DNA of 64,000 nucleotides from Hexactinellida sp. DTS-2022. Lineage: Eukaryota > Porifera > Hexactinellida. The stretch covers positions 2,356,001-2,420,000 of the forward strand of contig JAPNXP010000013.1 of the NCBI GenBank assembly GCA_028753945.1. Reading direction: 5' to 3'. The position numbers and the translations under genes were made by a program. Positions 8,632 through 21,922 of this stretch are shown here, piece after piece (the first letter of the stretch is position 1; each line of letters starts with the position of its first letter). The notes beneath the pieces were generated by a model that made no database searches, was not told the origin of the DNA, and saw only the letters and a list, made by a program, of their open reading frames with translations.

Positions 8632-10273
8632 CGCCCAGTCATCAACGCCTCAATGTGTCAAAAACCATTTGTTAATTTGTCCGAGTCACAAGGAATGGTA
8701 GATAAATTTGAAATTTGTTTCTACCGTAAACCATCTTGAGTTTACTGCCATTCATTCATTATGTATTGACAATAAATTATAATATAATGTTCAATTAATT
8801 TAGCAATGTTATCCACGGTTGGTTGAGTTGAGTCAACAAATTCCTTATATAGTTATATTTTATTTAATCCATTGTATAGTAATACTACAATTAAATAGAA
8901 GCCAGCTGTAATTTATAAGTTGAATCAATTTAATTATCGCAAGTTGAATCACTAGAGTAGGATTTAACAAGTTAAATCAATATAATTATTACAAGTTGAA
9001 ACAATGGAATTAGATTTCACAGTTTTATTGAAATTGAAGTGTGAGTAAACAAAGAAATTTCATCCCCATTTGTGGCAGAAATTAAACACCTTATTGAAAG
9101 ATTTCTTCTCCCATCAGACGCAGAATTTTATGGTGAATCCAAATGTGAAATAAAATTTGGGGGTTTAGTAAAACATTTTTTGAGTTATGGACCAGACAAA
9201 TTTTGAAAGGTGTTAAAGATGTGTCAAAAATTTCTTTATAAAAAATCGTAACCCCAGGAGCAAATTAGACGGTCCCATCGCACCTACATGCCAAGTTTCA
9301 GAGCATCAACTATAAAGCTCTGGCCAGGGCACCGTACAAAAATTTGAGTTATAAACATTCAAACTTGAATTTTGGAAAATGAGTGGAAGTATAATTTTGG
9401 AAAGTACATCGAGTAGGGTTAGTTCAAAGTGTCAATTCCTATCCAATATCAAACTGAATCTAATTTATTTTGGTATCACTCGTTAGAGGAGACACGGAGG
9501 TTTACCTCAATGCCATTAGATTCTCGAATATTTACTTTATAACAGACAAATAAGTATTTTTTAAATGGTATAAATCTCTGTTTTTATCGTTTTCTCTTTT
9601 CAAACTTTGAGCTCAATTTTCCGAGATAAAATATAATCAGAATCGATTCAAACTTTACAAGTATTTTCTTGATATATTATTATTCAATTCCCCGAAAAAA
9701 AACAGGGGTCGCTAGTCATTTCTTCCAGAATTTTTTTTCGTGGAAAACATTAATGAACTAAATTTTCATACTACAAGTTGTATGCGGCGAGCTCATAATA
9801 ACTATACAACCTACATATACCTAAACAGTAATTTCTCATAAGTCGAATTTGATTCACACAATCGTTAGTTCCACTTACACATTTTAAAAGGAATTTAGCT
9901 GTTCCGCCTATAGGCTATTCTTAGAATATATAAGTTTTTCCTAAGAACAGAAATAGATTTCCAACTTCACACTATTTTGTTTTCATTATTTTTTAAATCT
10001 TTATCAATCTTTTCACTTTTCACTTTTCTTCTTCTACTTCTATTTCTTCTTCCCCTATTTCTTGAATTTTAGTCCTCTTCTACAATTCTTTCTTGATTAA
10101 TTTCTTATTGTTCTCCGTCAATGATTTCTATTGAATTGTGGCGTGCTCTCATCGGTTTACATTGTAGCCGCAAATGCAATAACCATAATCAATCAACAAC
10201 AGACCAAATTGATTCATCAGTTTCACTGATCTCGGCTCTTATTGCTTGTATAATAGCAATTCTACTCGTCATT

Positions 10274-10300
10274 GGCGGCATCGAGATGAATCCTGGGCCT
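10274..10300 (+). other. 2A-like ribosome-skipping motif (GGIEMNPGP)
   Basis: Residues 52-60 of exon 1 read GGIEMNPGP, directly after a hydrophobic stretch (residues ~34-51). The established 2A consensus is D[VI]ExNPGP, so this has Gly for the first Asp but keeps Ile-Glu-x-Asn-Pro-Gly-Pro. 2A-like peptides are known near the N-termini of several metazoan retroelement proteins. Activity with Gly at that position is uncertain. Confidence 0.6.
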
Positions 10301-10638
10301 ATCACCCCAACTCAAGATACTCGTCACAAACAAGGTAATTTGATTGATATACGTTATGAATAAGGATAGCCTTTATTGTTATTTTTTAGAACTACTACCA
10401 GCAGAGATAAACTCTATTATCGACGCACTCCTCTCCACAACACTAACATTTGATCAATTGATCCAGTCCCTGTCTGTCAGCTACAGTTCGCCTAGTTCCA
10501 TTTGGGGTTCGATCTGTAAGAAGGTTTACTCGTGTAACAAGCCTGTCAAGAGACACAGCTTGTATTTGAAATGGAGAAACAACTCTCATAGCATAAGAAC
10601 CCTGGTGAGGGATTCTTTGAGCGAAGTTAAACCATTAG

Positions 10639-11828
10639 CAGTGGCGCCCACAGGGGTACGCAGTATAAGCACGTGCGTATACAAATTTAACTGGGTAATT
10701 TTCTTGGTTGTTTATTGCGTATTTTATTGATACTTATCACGTATAATTGGTATAATGTTTTTCATTATAATTCGTATATCTAACTTATTATATCGCGCTA
10801 TTGGATTTGTAATGAGCAACTTTCGGTTTAATCGATATTCTTTCAATGTAAAGCGACCTATAGTATAGCCAGTATAGTATAAATTTGATTACTTACTAGC
10901 ATCTTGTTTACAATAAGATTTTAACATATACTACTGAATTACTTTGAAACATCCCTGGTAGATCATATATATCACGTAAATACGTACTGATGGATAGCAT
11001 ATAATGTATGATACGTGTGATACGCAATACGCGTATCAATCAACTTAAGTTATTATATCATTTGCATCTGTACATCGGCGAATTTCACTACTCTCAAATA
11101 ATGATTAAGACCACTGTAATCAGTGTTACCTATTCCTATATACGGCCTATAATACGGGCCACATTCGGGCGGCCTCGTTCCGGCTTCATAGACCGACAAA
11201 TTTCAGAAAACGACTTAACGCTAGCGGGAGAGAATACGACACTTTTTCAACACATAAATACAATATAACTTAGGTGTCACGCAAAATCTCTAAATTGAGT
11301 GCGTATACTATGCTTAATTACTACCTGCAAACTTCGAATAGATAGGAAACCATTCCCCATCCCAGCTAAATGGTCTTGCTTTCTATTTTGATGGGTGCAG
11401 AATACATTATGGAAGTCATTTTGAGCAGGTGCAGAGTAGATTTGACCGGCCACTGGCTGGTCAAATTGGCGTTAGGCCGAACGCTGACTGTAATCCAAAA
11501 TCATGCTAATAATTAGTATAGTGCTATAATTGTGTTGCAACTGATCAATGTTCATTGTTAATGCATTGTGTTAATAGTACAATTATATGGTATATTCTTT
11601 GGAATCAAAAATTCCTAAAAATATTTGTGAGATGTTACATAATATATTGCTTCTGTGAACATCTTTTGAGTCTCGTTCTTATACAGCCCACATGCTTCCT
11701 AAGAGGGTTGACACACACCATTATTCAAAATTTAGTAGGGATGCTCGCTCCGCTCTCATCGACACTGTTAACAAAATTTCATGACAACAATGTGCGTATC
11801 TTTTTTCAGGGGTCTGTGGGCGCCTTTG
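10639..11828. mobile_element. hAT-type MITE (copy 1) in the NOF exon
   Basis: 1190 bp starting CAGTGGCGCCCACAGGGGTA and ending GGGTCTGTGGGCGCCTTTG, flanked by a perfect 8-bp duplication ACCATTAG (10631-10638 and 11829-11836). Removing it with one duplication restores the host frame. A second copy, itself interrupted, spans 50734-55277. No transposase inside. Confidence 0.85.
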
Positions 11829-14800
11829 ACCATTAGTAAGTCCCCCTAGTTCGGAGGAACAATTTCACGTGAGTTGTAGCCTTACAAACTTAACTATTCA
11901 GAGGAGAGCATCATTGGTAACTTCCACTATTCTTAAGGAAGTAAGTTTAAGTGTAGCTGCGTGTTCTGATTTATTTTCGGCACTCGATAACTTAGATTTG
12001 AGAAAACTTGAATTTGATTTAGTTGACGATAAACTTCTTATTGTGTGGGCATCTTCTGCGTCCGACCAAGCTATGTATGACCGGTTGAAAAGAGATTCTC
12101 AGACTGCAAATATTAGTTCTCTAAATAGTGATGGTCACGATGTGTATTACATGTTCAATACAACTGAATGTCAGCTATGGGTAGACGGTGCTATGTTTTA
12201 TGGATTAACTTGTCCACAAAATCTTTCTGGTTTTTTGCAATTCGAGGAAACTTGCTATTTTTATGAGTGTTTTGATTTTATTCCCACGATAGTAAGTACT
12301 TATTGTAAAAGTTTTATGGAATGTACTCCTTTATTGGTTTTGTGGTTGTCTGAAGTACAGCTTGAATGTAGTTTCTTGTATCAAATGTTTGGTAAGAAAT
12401 ATGTGTTTTTAAGTGGAGATGACTTGAGTCTTTTTATTACTTGGGTAAATGTGTTAAGAGATGTGTACAATGCTGATGGTGTTAAGTGCTTAGAAAGTAA
12501 ATGTACTGATTTTTGTGTTAGAGTTGTAAGTGAACTTCCACTTCCTCGTTCTCACGATGTGCCTAATATTAAAACTGACAACTTTGAAACAGAAATGGTG
12601 ATAGAGAGTTCTGAGATTGAAGTTCTAACTAATTTGAGTAGTAACTGTGGGGAGTTTTATCTCGAACTGAGTGAGTGGGATAATATTTGTATTACCAATT
12701 CTACTGGTATAACTTCATTGGTTAGTAATTGGACTAATGTTTTTGCTTAAAAATTTAAAGATTTAGCCCCAATGTGTCTTTTAAAGTTTGTAAATTATTG
12801 GTTGAAGAAACCTGATAGTCGTAAGGTTAATAGTCCTTTCTTCAGAGCTAGAGCGTCTTGTAAGTTTGAAAATTGTCGATCTTATATCTTTTATATTGAT
12901 GATGCACTAAATTTGGTAGATAATGACATACTTGTCAAAGTTTACTCAGAAGGATATTTGTCACTTCAACATACAGATGGACAGAGTGCATTTAGTCGCC
13001 ATCTATCTTGCAGTGAGCGTAGTAAAATGGGAGAATTATTAGTTAATAATTCGGTTAGTAAAATTTATAATAAACAGTTTAATAATTCAAGTAATCCTGG
13101 TCTCTGTTATGGTAATTTTACTTCTCTTAAATCACAAGATTGTTTGCGGAAAGTTAAAGCTGAATTGAAATCTAAGTAGCGATTTTCTGATTTATATATG
13201 GAAGATATAACAGCAACCCAGCAGTATTTCCGTTATTTACTCCCTGAATCCCTCCTACCAGGCTATGTTCAGTATTTCGTACAGGATCCTTTCATTATTC
13301 ATATGTATTCTTATAAGCAGCTGGAAATTCTAAAACTGATGAAAAGTAAAGATATTGTCTTGAATTTAGATGCGACTGGTTCTCTTATTTCTAAATCCCC
13401 TTCCTGTTCTAAGAAAATATATTACTATGCCCTTACAATACAACACCCGGAGTTTTCCACTAGTCCCATCCCATTAGCTGAAATGATAAGTAGCGATCAT
13501 AGCACCGCTGAAATCTCACACTTCCTAAATAAATGGTGTTTGAGTGTAAAATTATTTAACACAATGGAGCTAAAAATTAAGAAAGTTGAGATAGATTTTA
13601 GTTGGGCTATGATACACAGTACATGTTTAGCGTTTAACAAATTTACTATTTTTCATTATCTCCAATATTGTTGGGGATTTATAGCTAATAATGAGTACTT
13701 AGGTGTTATAACAGTCCTCCATCTCTGCTCGGCTCATATCATGACAGAATTAGTTATAATTTAAATAGGAAATTCAAATTAGAAAAGGCTTTAAAAAGAA
13801 TAATATTGCATGTATTTGGTCGTATGGTTAATTGTAGACAAATGAATGAAATTAATCAACTTTTCGGGTTACTTTGTTATATTTTGTGTAGTAAGAAGCA
13901 AACTAGTGTTTATTGCACTAAATTAAACCACCTAGAAGAATGTATTAGGGCGGAGATTAATGTTAGTAATGATGCCCCCAATGAATTCGAGGATGAGACT
14001 GAAGTTAAGAGTAATGCTGTAACTTACAGAGAGAAATCCCCCTTTGGCAGACATTTTGAAATGATTTATCGTAATACCTTAGTCTCAATAAGCGAATTCG
14101 ACAATAATTCGCAACTTGATCCTAGTGTATCTTATAACCCCCAGATAGTTGAATTTCTTCTCACGTATTATATGCCATTGTTACCGTTGTGGAGTGGGAA
14201 AATTTTATGTACAGTTAATTCGTCAGAGAATGCAACAGACAGTAATGCGATTGTTGAGAATTGGTTCAGAATTGTTAAACACAGCATATTTAATTCAGAG
14301 ACCGGGATACGAGCTGCTGATTTCATCAGAACAGTTTATAATAATATTGACGATAGGATCGCGGCTTTTAAATTTGCTTTTACCCCACTGGCTCAGAAAG
14401 TGTTTAAAGTTAAGAAGAGATTACGCGTGGAGAATGAGGAGGAGTGCAAAGAGGAGTGGTCTAGAAGTAAGAAGAGTAAATTTAGTTATACTAAACCAAC
14501 TGTTGATAAAGTTAGTAAGATATTTACAAATTTCAAGTCTAGTAAAGGTTTTAATGTAGAAAATTTAAGTAAACGTTCAACAAACAGGGAGGTAGCTGCT
14601 ATTTGTGAAGAAAATCCAGTTGGTGTTGCTACAGTTTGTGATGGTATTTTGCGTGCAAGTGAAGTTGAAATAATTAGTGATTTAGTTTTAGTAGAAATAG
14701 CTACCATGGAATATAAGTTACCGGCATTCCAACCACTTACATATCGGGGACAGAAGAAGTTATGTGAAGATTTACATTTACAATTGTCGGATTCTACAAA

Positions 14801-15366
14801 TTCCATAAGAGATAATATCCCAGCTAATTCTAATTTAAAAGAATATATTCCTTCGAAGTGTTTGCGAATTCCTGGAGATGGAAATTGTTTATTTGCATCA
14901 TTATCATACTGGTTGACTGGAAAAATTGATAGATTTAATTTAGTACGGTTGAAAGTTGTAGAGAATATGGTTGGTAAGCTGAAGGAAGCATGCAATAAGT
15001 TTATTGCCAATAAATTTCCGAAGAGTGTAATTAACTATCGTAACGTGGCGGACTATGTAGTGAAATCAAATATGAAGAGGAATTCTACGTGGGCTACTGA
15101 TGTGGAGTTATTTGCTACGGCCTTATTACTACAGACGGATATTTGGGTATTTAGTTCAGACATGGGTAATAAGTGGATGGTATTCTCAGGTAGAGGGGTT
15201 AAACTAGTTGATACTTTGGAATCTCTCCCAGGAAATAATGCAGGGTCTATCTATATTAATCATAATGGAGTACATTATGAACCGATATTACGGGTGGATT
15301 TAATATCTACGAAGTAATCAATGAATTCATGAATTACCTCGTAGATAATATTTAATTAATAACTAT

Positions 15367-16110
15367 ACGAGTGTTATCTTAGCGGCGGATTCATCGGCGG
15401 ATTCGCAGACCTCACGTTTATGCTAATAACTCAAAAAGTTTACGCTGTACGTGAAAAATTTTCACATCAGCGGGAAGATGAAAGTTGTGACAACCCATAT
15501 ATAATCCCAAAATGTCAAAATTCCTTAAGATGACTCAGCAATTTTCGCTCAAATTTAGACCTCGGTTTTTCCATAATAACTCAAAAATTATCCATCAAAT
15601 CAAATTTTCCTTTTAATCACATGTCTATCTCACCTATGACAACCTGTCATGCAAATTTCAAAACAAAATATTCATTTTTGAAAAAAAATTTTGAACATAA
15701 ATTTCATTAAATTAATTTCACGATCTTATCGGCGGATTCGCAGACCTCACGTTTATGCTAATAACTCAAAAAGTTTACGCTGTACGTGAATTTTTTTTAC
15801 ATCAGCGGAAAGATGAAAGTTGTGACAACCCATATATAATCCCAAAATGTCAAAATTCCTTAAGATGACTCAGCAATTTTCGCTCAAATTTAGACCTCGG
15901 GTTTTCCATAATAACTCAAAAGTTATTCATCAAATCAAATTTTCCTTTTAATCACATGTCTATCTCACCTATGACAACCTGTAATGCAAATTTCAAAACA
16001 AAATATTCATTTTTGAAAAAATATTATTAACATAAAATTTCACTAAAATCGGCTTACAATGATGATTTCCAATATCCATAATGTTGATATGTTGTCATTT
16101 AATAATACTA
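15367..16110. repeat. Long terminal inverted repeat, left arm, internally duplicated
   Basis: A ~330-bp unit (GGATTCGCAGACCTCACGTT ... ATTCATTTTTGAAAA) occurs twice in tandem (~15400-15690 and ~15730-16025). Homology to the right arm continues to ~16110 (AAAATCGGCTTACAATGATG). Internally repeated termini are a hallmark of Drosophila Foldback elements. Confidence 0.8.
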
Positions 16111-16814
16111 TTGATAAGAATGTATTTGATTTGCGTCAGTGTTCACAGGAATTAAAGTTTTAGGTACCTCTGAAGAATAATTAATGACCGCATTCCTAAT
16201 TATATCAGGCTTAGTGATTACTTTCTGTAAACAAGCTTACATAATACAAACAACTTCATATATACAAATATATTTGGAATGCAATATTCATTAAGAGAAT
16301 AGAATCAGACATATAAACAATATTATGGTTACTACAACAATGTTAGGTATTTTAAGCATCTCCAGGTTTTTCCATTTCCATAATCTGCGTAACTTCTATC
16401 TGAATGATCTTACTTGTGGCCATGTTCCTTCTCTCCAAATATACGTACTATTTGCCTTTAAAGAGGGTGAATCTCATATAAATGTAAAGCAACATATTAT
16501 CTCAGAATATGACTTACCAACGAGTGCATGTTATTAAAATGGTGACAAATATTAGTAATGCTTTATATAGAAAGATCGAGATAACCAAAGTTATTCTAAA
16601 AAAGTAAGAGAACTACTTAGTAGAACATGGAAATAAAGAGAGAACTAGTTTATTGGTTTAGGATTTAACACATTAATGATAATATGCATTAATTCTTTTC
16701 ACTGATACGATATTAAAAGGGCGCCATTAAATATAACAGGAAAGTACATCTACAAATTGTGGTAAAACTATTGCAACTCTTCTAAAACTCTGCCTTGTTC
16801 AATTTAAAAAATAA

Positions 16815-19800
16815 TTAACTATTATTTTCGAATTTAACAGAAATAATAGGTTCATAATGATTCCCAATATTTCGTATATATATCCCATTTGGGGTTGGCG
16901 CCTTCATTAACTCTTCAAAAGTTGATCCATTCCCTGAAAATCCAATCCAACGTGTTCCCAACGGACCCAAGAATACCCAGATATCTATATTAAATAACAA
17001 AGCAGTTGCAAAGAGTTCAAGATCAGTAGCCCATTTCCCACTCTTCCTCATTCCTGTTTTGTTGACCCAGTCTTGTACATTTCGATAATTACCCTGCGTA
17101 TAAACATATTTTGTGCGTAAATATTGATTGCAACTCATACTTAGGTCACCTAGCATATTATCAATTATTAGCTCCCTAAACTCTGCATGGAAATCTTGAC
17201 TACCAGTGATGAGGTAAGAAATTGTCGAGAAATAGCAATTTCCATCGCCAATTATATATTGAGTCAAGTTTGGCGAATAACTAAATAAACTTTCTTCATT
17301 ATCTACAATATCATTATAGGAGTACGGTAACTCCTCGCGAAAGTGAAACTTCCACTTTTTACATGTAGAAATCTGCCAGTCTGTATGTGGCGGACGAAAG
17401 CTTGGTAGTACATATCGTATTAGCCCCGTCTCAACTATTTCCTCATCTGTAATTATAGAGGCCACTCGCATTACCTTTGATGCAGTTTGCGTACGTAAAC
17501 TAGATAACTTTTCGCATTTTCGTGGGACAAATTTACGCTTAATTTTACATATTTTATTTTTCTTCTCAACTTTTTTCTTCTTAAATGTTTGAAATTCATA
17601 TGATTTAGGTTGTAAATAACCGCAATACACTTTCTTTTTTCGTGACCATTCTTCAACACTTTCCTCTTCCAAACTATTTCTTACTCTTTTATGACCTTTA
17701 AATACCTTATTCGCTCGCGGGTGAAAGGCAAATTGAAACGCTGATAACCTACTTACTATACCAGGATACAACAATTGTATCAAATCTCCAGGCCTCAAAT
17801 TAGTTTTGGATTCCAAAATATTTAACTTCACAATACGCATCCAATTCTCCACAATAGCGTTGCTAAAGATGCTAGTCTTGTTCTTATCCGCTACACTAAT
17901 AGGTCCTAAGATTATTCCACTCCATAAAGGTAATATAGGTAGGTAGAATGTTAACAAGTATTCTATAAGCTCCGGATTATAACAAGGATTTGGATCTGCA
18001 TTTTTTCCTGGATTATTGTTGATCCAAGATTTGCAATTTTTTGCAATATTTACAAAATGTTTGCCGAAAGGGGATTTTTCTCTGTATGTTTTACTATCCT
18101 TGTTATCAATAGCAATATTATTATCGTCCATATGTTCTTCAACCAAATATTCATTAGTCTCTGAGGAGTTTACGGAATCATTACTAATGAATGTTTCTAG
18201 CAAATGAGTATGTGTCTTTACTATTGCACTTAAAGAACTACTCATAAATACAATGCATAAAGATTGGAATAAATTATTGATACTTGTCATTTCAACAGCG
18301 CGTACAATAAATCCGATACTATGTAAAAACAGTTTTCTCACTTCTTTTTGTAGTTTAAATTTTTTATTTATATGAAATCCTATGCTGTGCATTAAATGAG
18401 CCGAACATAAGTGAAGAATTACTTTAAAGTCCGTCTCATTAACTGCAGAATTTACATCTACCATATTCCAACACTTATGGAGATAAGTATCTATATCACA
18501 CTTGAGAAAAATACTACAAGAACTGTGAATCAAAACCCAGCTGAAATCTATTTCAACTTGTGAAATGTTTAGATCGCCCAGTATTTTCTTTGCATCAAGG
18601 GACCATTTGTGCAAAAAATAACTTATTTCAGCACTGGTGTGTCCTGAACTAATCATTTCTGCTAGTGGAATTGGACTAGTGGAGTAAGTAGGATGTCTTA
18701 CAGTTAGAGCGTAATAGAATACTTTCTTTAGTGAGGGTTCTATTTTCCTAACAATTGATCCTGTGGCATCCAAGTGAAGAACAATTCTTGTATCTTTAAA
18801 CAATTTCAATATTTTGATTTGATCTTCAGTGTACATATGTACAATAAAAGGATTATGACTTAGTGACTGTATGTAACCTCTAACATGAAGGCCAATAACA
18901 CTATTTCTATAATACTGTTGTAAGCTAATTAACTCAGTCCAGTTATCATTAGAATACCTCTGTAAACTAGACAAATCAAATTTAGCTTTTCGCAGGACTG
19001 CAGAACTTCTAACCTTATTTAGGTTACCATAATTAAGCGCTAAGTTTGTGTTCTCTACAGAATCAAATTGATCATAGAAATATGCATTTACAGATGTATC
19101 TGCTACCCCTCTAGCTACTTCTAACCTATGCGAATGTGATAAATTTCGTGAGTGCACAGTTGTATTATCGAAATGCTGTTCAGATAAGGTTCCATAAGCT
19201 ACATACTCCACAATAATATTTTCATCAATTTTACACTCCAACGGCTCTTTCTTTATTACAAATGTAAATTCAAAACAATCTTTAAACTTACACACTGCTT
19301 TAGCTCTAAAAAAACAGCTATTTTGTTTTCTACTACTAAGTTTATTAACCTTTTTGTATTGAAAAGAAAGAACACATACAAAATTTCCCTCGATTTTTGA
19401 ACTAAATAAATTGGTCCAATCTTTAGAAAATACTACAGAGTCTCCATGAATTAGTGTAATACTTTTCCATTCCATTCCACTTAGCAAAAATTCACCACAG
19501 ATTTCCTCACTAAACATGGATTGTTCAACTATGACTTCATTACCCAGAGTACTGTCGTCATCTTCTGATGGCACTAGCAATTTGGACTCAGGGATATTAG
19601 AGGTAATAACAATTTCAGGTTGCGGGTCATCGGTAGATGACAATACCGGGACTTGTTGATTTGAAGAAGAAGAAGAGGTATGATGCAATTTTAGGCACAG
19701 AGATTCATGAAATGAGCTTAAAGTATCTGAACTTTCTCGACAGGCTAGAATAAAGCTAGTGAATAAATCTAGTTGTTGCACTGTGATAGCTATATATGAA

Positions 19801-20552
19801 TTCCCGAATAGCTCTAATATCCTACAACTAATGTTTTCAACTAAAATCCACGCTTCCACTAAGTTACAATTTCGCCTGATTAGTCGAATCCATTGCATTG
19901 ACTCCATTAGACAGCAACTAAACTTTTTCGACTGGTCGTGGAGTTTGTCATCCACTAGCATGAACTCACCACTAACAAGCGGACACTCTAAGCTGAAAAA
20001 TTTCATTGCATCTAACCATAGACTATTATTACAGTTTATGAATGACCAAAAATGGCTATCAGTCCTCCCTGTTTGGGGAGGAGGAGAAGCTATCTTAGAC
20101 ATGAGACCGTAAAGCTGGCAGTCATCGCAACCAGATGCCAATAAACCTAGCAAACTGTTATTCGTTACGTCTCGCTGTAAACTAGGAAAACTGAAATCGA
20201 TTTCATCCAAACTCCTCTTACTGAGTTCTATAGTGTCAGGATATGAGCTAGCAGATACTAACTGAGTACTGATATGCTCTACTGCCAATCGGGATACATC
20301 ATTGGTGATAGACTTACGCGTACTGATCATTTGCTTTACGAGATGCTGAAAGTTTCCTCTATTCAATCTCCATTTGGAGCTGAGAGAATCGCGCTTAGTA
20401 GCCTTGTTTTTTCCAAAAAGAATAATTGATAATTTTCCCCAGACAGATTTTGGCTTATGTTTGTCTCCTTTGTTCAAAGCATCTCTTACGCTATCGAAGC
20501 TTTCATAGCCGAGTTTCTGGAGAGCTTCCACGAATTGCTCTATTGAAGTCAT
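16815..20552 (-). CDS. NOF-like MULE transposase fused to an OTU cysteine-protease domain
   Basis: Uninterrupted 1245 codons. The N-terminal ~80 residues (SVWGKLSIILFG..KRDSLSSKWRLNRG) resemble the start of the outer element's exon 2. The central region has the MULE-NOF signature: LHLDATGS (candidate catalytic Asp595), VEIDFSW (Asp669), a CSAH pair, and NAIVENW (Glu902). Residues ~990-1050 are Lys/Arg-rich. The C-terminus is an OTU domain: IGDGNCYF gives the catalytic Asp1103/Cys1106 pair and IGNHYEP the catalytic His1232, so the protease triad looks complete. TAG|TAATG just before the Met suggests a splice acceptor, so the true protein may start in an upstream exon, as in the outer copy. Expected roles are element mobilisation plus deubiquitinase-like activity; the latter is inference from motifs. 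Confidence 0.85.
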   Translation of the reverse strand: MTSIEQFVEALQKLGYESFDSVRDALNKGDKHKPKSVWGKLSIILFGKNKATKRDSLSSKWRLNRGNFQHLVKQMISTRKSITNDVSRLAVEHISTQLVSASSYPDTIELSKRSLDEIDFSFPSLQRDVTNNSLLGLLASGCDDCQLYGLMSKIASPPPQTGRTDSHFWSFINCNNSLWLDAMKFFSLECPLVSGEFMLVDDKLHDQSKKFSCCLMESMQWIRLIRRNCNLVEAWILVENISCRILELFGNSYIAITVQQLDLFTSFILACRESSDTLSSFHESLCLKLHHTSSSSSNQQVPVLSSTDDPQPEIVITSNIPESKLLVPSEDDDSTLGNEVIVEQSMFSEEICGEFLLSGMEWKSITLIHGDSVVFSKDWTNLFSSKIEGNFVCVLSFQYKKVNKLSSRKQNSCFFRAKAVCKFKDCFEFTFVIKKEPLECKIDENIIVEYVAYGTLSEQHFDNTTVHSRNLSHSHRLEVARGVADTSVNAYFYDQFDSVENTNLALNYGNLNKVRSSAVLRKAKFDLSSLQRYSNDNWTELISLQQYYRNSVIGLHVRGYIQSLSHNPFIVHMYTEDQIKILKLFKDTRIVLHLDATGSIVRKIEPSLKKVFYYALTVRHPTYSTSPIPLAEMISSGHTSAEISYFLHKWSLDAKKILGDLNISQVEIDFSWVLIHSSCSIFLKCDIDTYLHKCWNMVDVNSAVNETDFKVILHLCSAHLMHSIGFHINKKFKLQKEVRKLFLHSIGFIVRAVEMTSINNLFQSLCIVFMSSSLSAIVKTHTHLLETFISNDSVNSSETNEYLVEEHMDDNNIAIDNKDSKTYREKSPFGKHFVNIAKNCKSWINNNPGKNADPNPCYNPELIEYLLTFYLPILPLWSGIILGPISVADKNKTSIFSNAIVENWMRIVKLNILESKTNLRPGDLIQLLYPGIVSRLSAFQFAFHPRANKVFKGHKRVRNSLEEESVEEWSRKKKVYCGYLQPKSYEFQTFKKKKVEKKNKICKIKRKFVPRKCEKLSSLRTQTASKVMRVASIITDEEIVETGLIRYVLPSFRPPHTDWQISTCKKWKFHFREELPYSYNDIVDNEESLFSYSPNLTQYIIGDGNCYFSTISYLITGSQDFHAEFRELIIDNMLGDLSMSCNQYLRTKYVYTQGNYRNVQDWVNKTGMRKSGKWATDLELFATALLFNIDIWVFLGPLGTRWIGFSGNGSTFEELMKAPTPNGIYIRNIGNHYEPIISVKFENNS

Positions 20553-20880
20553 TACTAGATGAAATAATAATAATAATTTTAATTAATCAATACATATATA
20601 TATACTACTACAGTAGAACCTCGTTAGTACGAACACGGTTAATTAAGTCATTACTAGATGAAATAATAATAATTATTATAATTAATCAATACATATATAT
20701 ATACTACTACAGTAGAACCTCGTTAGTACGAACACGGTTAATTAATACGAATTTCCGGATAAGAAGAACAGTTCCACAAAATCAGGTCCTTACAATGGCG
20801 ATTGAATGGGTATTACTCCGGTTAATACGAACTCCGGATAAAGCGAACAAATTTTTATTGTCCGTTGGTATCGACTGCAT
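20547..20880. repeat. pogo-type MITE fragment with a ~99-bp tandem duplication
   Basis: GTCATTACTAGATGAAATAA ... TACAGTAGAACCTCGTTAGT ... CACGGTTAATTAA occurs twice (from 20547 and from 20646). The first copy includes the start codon of the transposase ORF. Beyond it, GGTTAATACGAACTCCGGAT is the opposite end of the MITE. Confidence 0.65.
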
Positions 20881-20984
20881 ATAGTAATTATATTAGTATT
20901 CGAGGCCGGCGGTATTTCCTTCCGCCGGACTTGGGCATCCAAAGCTTGAAGGCCACGTTATTGTAAATTAAATTTTAGATCTGA

Positions 20985-21254
20985 TCATTCAAAATGTAGT
21001 GGTAAAAATATCGGTCTGGCCATGGCCTGCCCTGGTATTATTAAAATAAATAACAAAGTAGCTAAAAGGCAAATAAAATAAAAAAACTCACTTGAATTGG
21101 AAGAATCGACTTGGAGGAATAAAGAAGAGAGCAGAAAATAATTGAGAAGAAAATGGAGATGAGAAATATGCTGTAAAGTCAAAAAGATCTTTGAAAAAAA
21201 AGTGAAAAGTGTGTTTGAAAAAAATGAAATAAATTCGAAGAAAATCAAGTACAC
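20985..21254 (-). CDS. Possible hydrophobic first exon of the inner NOF element
   Basis: A 89-codon Phe/Leu/Ile-rich ORF upstream of the transposase, at the same relative place as the outer element's hydrophobic exon. Its hydrophobic run (CLLATLLFILII) is followed by PGQAMARP instead of a 2A motif. No convincing donor site was seen, so its use as an exon is speculative. Confidence 0.3.
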   Translation of the reverse strand: MYLIFFEFISFFSNTLFTFFSKIFLTLQHISHLHFLLNYFLLSSLFLQVDSSNSSEFFYFICLLATLLFILIIPGQAMARPIFLPLHFE

Positions 21255-21309
21255 GTAGAAGAAAGGCAGTGTACCATTTATAGTGAGAAATCATTGAATT
21301 ATAAACAAA

Positions 21310-21745
21310 GGATATAATAAATTCTGATCAATAGTTATTAGACAACATATTCTACATTGTGGATAAAGGATAGGTATTCAAATCATCATTGTAAGCCGAT
21401 TTTAGAAAAATTTATGTTAATAATATTTTTTCAAAAATGAATATTTTGTTTTGAAATTTGCATGACAGGTTGTCATAGGTGAGATAGACATGTGATTAAA
21501 AGGAAAATTTGATTTGATGGATAATTTTTGAGTTATTATGGAAAAACCGAGGTCTAAATTTGAGCGAAAATTGCTGAGTCATCTTAAGGAATTTTGACAT
21601 TTTGGGATTATATATGGGTTGTCACAACTTTCATCTTCCCGCTGATGTGAAAATTTTTCACGTACAGCGTAAACTTTTTGAGTTATTAGCATAAACGTGA
21701 GGTCTGCGAATCCGCCGATGAATCCGCCGCTAAGATAACACTCGT
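21310..21745. repeat. Long terminal inverted repeat, right arm (single unit)
   Basis: Reverse complement of the left arm (CATCATTGTAAGCCGATTTT through GATAACACTCGT), carrying one copy of the ~330-bp unit rather than two. The arms therefore differ in repeat number. Confidence 0.8.
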
Positions 21746-21861
21746 AATAACTATAGTATAATTAGATAATTAAAGAAAATTTCCTTTATTAATTAATAAA
21801 TAAATAATTATTTGTTGTATGCAGAATACTATCCAGGTTTAGGAATACTCCTTGGTATATA

Positions 21862-21922
21862 CAGTTAACTCCCGTTATAGCGAAATTCAATTACTTGGAC
21901 TTCGTTATAACGGGAGTTAACT
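21862..21922. repeat. Short inverted repeat GTTAACTCCCGTTATAGCG
   Basis: CAGTTAACTCCCGTTATAGCG and CGTTATAACGGGAGTTAACT face each other over a ~20-base loop, a minimal hairpin or collapsed MITE within the outer element's 3' region. Confidence 0.5.

Follow-up and report, generated by a model that had tools for sequence, protein, structure and literature searches.

The window analysed here, a 64,000-nucleotide stretch of the genome of Hexactinellida sp. DTS-2022 (Porifera), contains a complete, recently mobile inverted-repeat DNA transposon with foldback-like arms, situated at positions 15367-21745. It carries a single open reading frame (ORF) of 1245 amino acids (16815-20552) on the minus strand, which also defines the orientation of the element. 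The ORF probably encodes a DDE-type transposase, followed by an OTU-like cysteine protease domain. The explanation that we favour, with some reserve, is that of a recently active, apparently autonomous cut-and-paste transposon, in which the OTU domain would be an active deubiquitinase working in cis on the transposase or its complex.

Structure of the Element

The element is bounded by the inverted ends ACGAGTGTTATC at positions 15367 and 21745. Direct reading of the flanks shows a 9-bp target-site duplication, AATAACTAT, immediately outside each end (15358-15366 on the left and 21746-21754 on the right). The terminal arms, 346 nt, are complementary at 98%. The arm on the 3' side of the ORF (15367-16068, plus strand) is composed of two units of about 335 bp and an inner piece of 34 nt, and the arm on the 5' side (21380-21745, minus strand) of one unit. 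A unit of about 300 nt can be delineated twice in the left arm (15393-15692 and 15728-16027, 335 bp from start to start) and once in the right arm. The exact duplication, the complementary ends, the unequal unit numbers and the 1245-codon ORF are thus all present as described in the initial annotation of this DNA, as are the motifs around D595, D669, E902, D1103, C1106 and H1232 of the protein. The repeated arms of that annotation were also found, with a measured unit spacing of 335 bp.

Copies and Mobility

The genome searched comprises 112.4 Mb in 18 contigs, in which the window is C5:2356001-2420000. Of telomere-type patterns, four tandem TTAGGG occur 0 times in it and five tandem TTAGG once, the control of the latter occurring 69 times. 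Arm DNA gave 59 matches, 40 of 211 candidates having been scored. A 22-nt pattern of the ends, allowing at most one mismatch, occurs 67 times per strand genome-wide compared to 0 and 0 for a reversed-pattern control, which is far above chance. Ends were paired into 18 copies and their flanks read; these copies are a part of all end pairs, as the pair at C10:2842641-2848963, for instance, lies outside the set. An exact 9-bp duplication flanks 15 of the 18 copies and an 8-bp duplication one more. This length agrees with that of Mutator-like elements (MULEs), which is 8-11 bp and mostly 9 bp.

Six full copies, each complete in one fetched locus, have pairwise identities of 99.72-99.86%, one of them (L012) lacking about 167 bp. 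The ORF is uninterrupted (1244-1245 amino acids) in eight copies of the subfamily, including that in the window, and a ninth full-length copy has one TAG. Two members of a sister subfamily (L019 and L020, 81% protein identity) have long open frames as well. The element is complete, as proposed initially, with inverted arms, duplications and near-identical further copies having the same boundaries across the genome, and it is apparently autonomous.

The number of units varies among copies. On the 3' side of the ORF most copies read have two units, but three are found in C12:2301642, C1:7108111 and C7:2239557 and a single one in C1:6511682. The arm on the 5' side has one unit, except for two in C16:3986266. 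The family thus shows the long inverted arms with a variable count of direct repeat units that define foldback-type elements. Ends of the same family also face each other at distances of 2-3.5 kb (C11:1722141-1725607, C13:2701088-2703246 and C3:3318046-3320639); these pairs are perhaps non-autonomous derivatives.

The target of the insertion is itself an older, near-full-length, OTU-bearing element of the L054 group on the plus strand (10132-15366, consisting of 10132-10633 and 11835-15366), which resumes at 21755-21842. The young element starts 49 bp past the stop codon of an ORF piece (13806-15317, plus strand) that is part of this older element. Upon in silico removal of the young element together with one copy of the duplication, the remaining sequence aligns across the junction with the paralogue L054. 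In this alignment 169 of 214 columns are identical, with 21 gap positions, including a 3-base gap near the junction. The continuity of the alignment constitutes empty-site evidence of insertion. About 1.2 kb of other sequence (10634-11834) separates the 5' part of the older element from its remainder.

The OTU Domain

The C-terminal residues 1081-1245 (16818-17312, minus strand) form an OTU domain that is real as judged by its profile match, its predicted fold and its conserved Cys and His residues, all of which are those of OTU cysteine proteases. The initial annotation had noted a full OTU-like Asp/Cys...His set in the same ORF, and the profile search agrees. The Pfam OTU profile (PF02338) matches residues 1102-1194 of the window ORF with 24.6 bits, above the cut-off of 23.3. 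Among eight relatives, five exceed the cut-off, with a maximum of 40.3 bits, and all eight have an E-value below 0.02.

An alignment of 18 family members has the OTU domain matched in 15. The fetched stretches of the other three (L063, L066 and L067) stop before or inside the domain and contribute no OTU columns; for L063, there is an OTU match a short way downstream of the fetched stretch (C16:4898613). Counting those members that reach a given column, which are 33-84% identical to the window protein, Cys1106 (17235-17237) is kept in 15 of 15 and His1232 (16857-16859) in 14 of 14, while Asp1103 (17244-17246, all on the minus strand) and Gly1104 are each kept in 14 of 15.

The mean predicted local distance difference test (pLDDT) score is 55.2 for a structure model of residues 381-1245, with block means of 61-90 in its OTU part. 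When the OTU model was compared with the PDB using Foldseek, the best match was OTUD3 (4bou; E-value 6.5e-6, TM score 0.70 on the target), and all of the top 50 of 221 matches (E-value up to 10) were of the OTU type. The nearest folds are cellular deubiquitinases and nairovirus OTUs. This was further supported by a profile built from 15 relatives and compared to PDB sequences, which gave eight matches with E-values up to 10, the best being 0.00026. Six of them are named OTU proteins. The other two are chains of viral polymerases, one of which, 6dx2, is titled as an OTU domain. For the expectation that the Cys and His would superpose on OTU structures, the comparison was made at the level of the fold, which is of the OTU type.

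The fifteen proteins that reach the OTU domain fall into nine groups at identity thresholds of 60-80% and into ten at 85%, with identities between groups of 28-50%. Searches with three family members returned at least 50, 97 and 54 matches. With nine divergent groups bearing it, the OTU domain looks ancestral to the radiation of the family within this host, as opposed to a one-off capture. In one member (L064, C1:7157700-7159560), the open frame seems to pass from the transposase part straight into the last approximately 40 residues of the OTU domain, as though an in-frame deletion had removed most of the stretch between the glutamate and the OTU end.

The ratio of nonsynonymous to synonymous substitution rates (dN/dS) between the window ORF and its sister L019 is 0.166 in the OTU domain, 0.221 in residues 561-960, 0.250 in residues 351-560, 0.283 in the linker, 0.332 in residues 1-350 and 0.256 over the whole protein, a ranking given without a significance test. 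The ORF piece of the older element in the window (13806-15314), when compared to L054, has a dN/dS of 0.108 in the OTU domain and 0.482 in the remainder. With values of 0.166 and 0.108, the OTU domain is under clear purifying selection.

The Transposase Region

The part of the protein preceding the OTU domain is probably a DDE-type transposase with a MULE-like duplication length. Its putative DDE core (residues 561-960; 17673-18872, minus strand) contains D595 in LDATG, D669 in EIDFSW, C716 and H719 in CSAH, and E902 in SNAIVENW. All five are invariant among the members that reach their positions (14, 14, 14, 15 and 18 members, respectively). In the structure model of residues 381-1245, the elements of the region follow one another as strand-strand-strand-helix-strand-helix; D595 and D669 are strand residues and E902 is a helix residue. 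This low-confidence arrangement would fit an RNase H-like core having a helical insertion before the glutamate. Since the models of the DDE region are poor, the transposase assignment rests on the motifs, the termini and the duplications.

The initial annotation described the element as a NOF/Foldback-like MULE. The repeated foldback-like arms stand, but MULE membership of the transposase is unproven by its sequence. The Pfam MULE profile (PF10551) matches neither the window ORF nor, even at an E-value of 10, any of the 18 members, in contrast to all 150 scored MULE candidates elsewhere in the genome, which lie above the cut-off. Alignment by hhalign with nine MULE transposases of the same genome gave E-values of 0.072, 0.054 and 0.095, and 11 of 200 column-shuffled profiles were equally good. 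This weak alignment places the D669 region on the second MULE aspartate, a register kept by only one of four MULE subsets. It was dropped as proof of MULE membership, because shuffled decoys equal it and three of the four subsets align elsewhere. An NCBIfam scan gave matches at chance level only.

Accordingly, another DDE superfamily (P, hAT or a separate NOF type) has to be considered, in which foldback arms and 9-bp duplications would have evolved in parallel. The Pfam contrast and the undecided hhalign result point in this direction, as do two remarks in the literature: PMC4079207 lists an FB-NOF paper (Badal et al. 2013) among the exceptions to the equation of foldback elements with Mutator, and PMC3169594 mentions foldback arms on the P-type element Galileo. 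Such a kinship nevertheless appears rather unlikely. Against it, duplications of 9 bp and arms of this length are in keeping with MULEs, the hhalign alignment, weak as it is, sets D669 on the second MULE aspartate, and the CxxH and SNAIVENW motifs resemble by eye the FHF/TNN..E motifs of MULEs. It would in any case be compatible with the favoured explanation, that of an autonomous transposon with a deubiquitinase in cis. Integrase families, which would indicate a Ginger1-type transposase, are absent from the Pfam matches of the window ORF and of the 18 members.

Relation to Known Transposons

Drosophila FB/NOF elements have long arms with internal repeats, 9-bp duplications and one long ORF. 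The FB arms are made of short units, whereas those of the window element measure about 335 bp. FB-NOF is called non-autonomous in a title cited by PMC8277862, whereas the present family has intact ORFs. The Phantom/Foldback element Tm1 of root-knot nematodes is similar in its foldback-like arms of varying unit number and its mostly 9-bp duplications, but is described as having a 496-residue transposase with FLYWCH and MULE domains (PMC3169594). The text of that paper contains neither 'ovarian tumor' nor 'cysteine protease'. Tetris of Drosophila virilis has arms with a variable number of units of about 220 bp and duplications of 8-10 bp; it differs in being, by its description, apparently non-autonomous and without a protein (PMC4079207).

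The pairing of a transposase with an OTU domain, which the initial annotation took to be the unusual part, is already known elsewhere, and that claim is weakened accordingly. Table 1 of PMC6446971 gives 'Ovarian Tumour Gene' as the other motif of MuDR-6_HM, a Hydra element of MULE group 14. Compared by description only, this element is likewise of the Mutator type with one ORF, but its entry shows no terminal repeats and states no duplication (PMC6446971). According to PMC2836005, Ginger1 elements have a DDE transposase with a C-terminal OTU domain (others with Ulp1). They differ by a Gypsy-integrase-type transposase, of which the window ORF has no match, and by terminal repeats of 44-270 bp among the entries listed. 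The same paper reports that Mutator elements can carry Ulp1 and Helitron proteins an OTU, so that ubiquitin-system proteases are on record for several transposon types, and its authors suggest that the ubiquitin pathway takes part in transposition. An OTU in Helentrons is mentioned in PMC6431247. Among the open-access papers searched, judged by titles and abstract openings, no report of a NOF-OTU fusion was found. In the present genome, however, the pairing is common to several divergent families, and the OTU is kept intact by selection.

Possible Role of the OTU Domain

In the favoured explanation, the DDE (RNase H-like) part would bind the arms, excise the element and join it to the target at staggered cuts 9 bp apart. 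The OTU domain would be an active deubiquitinase whose substrates, in cis, would be the transposase itself or members of its complex. Removal of ubiquitin could let the transposition complex last until the reaction is finished.

Several results weigh against this explanation. Three of the 18 paired copies lack an exact 9-bp duplication, and two of them, C2:5324199 (a 4-bp match only) and C4:2297567 (nothing), have no duplication of 8-9 bp. A separate model of residues 525-961 (pLDDT 52.5) did not reproduce the second and third strands of the DDE core, and a Foldseek search with it found no related fold, the best match (E-value 0.095) being an unrelated protein. When the window ORF was compared as a single sequence to the PDB, no chain had an E-value below 0.16. 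Three of the eight relatives are below the Pfam OTU cut-off (L056 with 22.9 bits, L060 with 16.3 and L019 with 19.9), and L056 has Asn at D1103, while L060 has Arg at G1104. The lower dN/dS of the OTU domain stems from a higher dS (0.512 compared to 0.343 in residues 561-960); its dN of 0.085 is not below the 0.076 of that region. Among seven recent copies the silent and changing variants number 3 and 2 in the OTU domain, 4 and 4 in the DDE region, and 4 and 5 elsewhere; these copies show no visible very recent constraint on the OTU, the variants being too few. 

Some of these points would be expected if the OTU were a passenger or a ubiquitin-binding module without catalysis, namely the three low-scoring relatives and the replacement of the motif by NGNC in one member and DRNC in another. 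The Cys and His are, however, present in every relative that reaches them, and dN/dS is low (0.166 and 0.108) in two separate comparisons, which makes a non-catalytic role very improbable.

Some viral OTU-type proteases process themselves. The OTU domain might similarly cut the long protein into a transposase and accessory parts, the lysine-rich and poorly conserved linker at about residues 961-1080 being possibly cleavable (as judged from the alignment by eye and from low model confidence). No cleavage site conserved across groups could be discerned by eye in this linker, and the nearest folds are those of cellular deubiquitinases and nairovirus OTUs; self-processing is quite improbable.

A further possibility, clearly less probable than the favoured reading, is an action of the OTU in trans on host factors rather than on the transposase itself, such as ubiquitin marks at double-strand breaks or in silencing chromatin. 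An integrase-like ORF of the same genome (L080, see below) has the same C-terminal placement of the OTU, and activation of DNA repair has been proposed for Ginger1 (PMC2836005). The sequence does not discriminate between the two modes of action.

With its near-identical and apparently complete copies, its nine divergent OTU groups and its signal of selection, the family makes it directly testable whether a transposon needs its own deubiquitinase.

Other Ubiquitin-Related Tails in the Genome

All 150 scored Pfam OTU candidates, out of 440, are above the cut-off, so that the genome has at least 150 such matches. The profile was found in none of 14 control genomes, a weak control, the three named ones being prokaryotes. 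At least 26 of the 150, as counted by inspection, overlap with matches of the family searches, and repeated open frames of about 226 residues make up many of the remainder. Three such OTU loci with Pfam matches were opened (L078:3820-4494, L079:3545-4222 and L080:3496-4809). In L080, an integrase-like N-terminal part and a C-terminal OTU occupy one ORF, an arrangement that by eye is that described for Ginger1 (PMC2836005). The integrase-like region was recognized by eye, with sub-threshold matches to the Tf2-1 SH3 domain and murine leukaemia virus integrase.

An exchange of OTU domains between the family and L080 was considered and is not claimed. One tree joins them (support 85/91), but a grouping of the Ginger rows together is not rejected (p-AU 0.19), and L080 has no settled position in a tree from which the three host-like rows were removed. 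Seven rows carry the label Ginger in the tree; an integrase-like region shares the ORF with the OTU in L080 only. The label was given by eye to L078 and L079, whose neighbouring ORFs have no Pfam match, and solely for similarity of the OTU to L084, L087, L088 and L090. The host label of L082, L083 and L086 was likewise assigned by eye.

Some MULEs of the genome have a different tail. Nine MULE ORFs were fetched and eight scanned, four of which end in a RING finger (PF13920) above the cut-off (L071:341-2167, L072:489-2144, L074:278-1915 and L075:493-2127). FLYWCH is above the cut-off in three of the eight, none of them bearing RING. A search with L072 gave 80 matches, 29 of which are stop-free through the RING, and the proteins of two L072-type copies show a rounded identity of 100%. 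The RING is a possible ubiquitin ligase tail. According to PMC6446971, a Ghost element has a RING ORF and an oomycete MULE has a RING finger. A comparison of the alignment of the OTU-bearing transposon family with viral contigs gave 38 pattern matches, none of which was confirmed.

One might speculate that unrelated transposon lineages in this compact genome have tapped both directions of the host ubiquitin system, removal through the OTU tails of foldback-armed DDE and integrase-type elements and addition through the RING tails of some MULEs. These tails would be working parts of transposition, repeatedly recruited or swapped, and a transposon-borne ubiquitin switch would set the level of transposase. 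We regard so broad a scheme as rather doubtful.

Neighbouring Features

A tandem repeat of 99 bp in two copies (96% identity; 20541-20738, minus strand) spans the start codon and leader of the window ORF. The sequence CAGTAGAACCTCGTTAGTACGAAC within these copies resembles a pogo/Tigger-type end. Just beyond the element, at 21863-21922, there is a hairpin similar to a miniature inverted-repeat transposable element, with 28-nt inverted arms (89%) spaced 4 nt apart.

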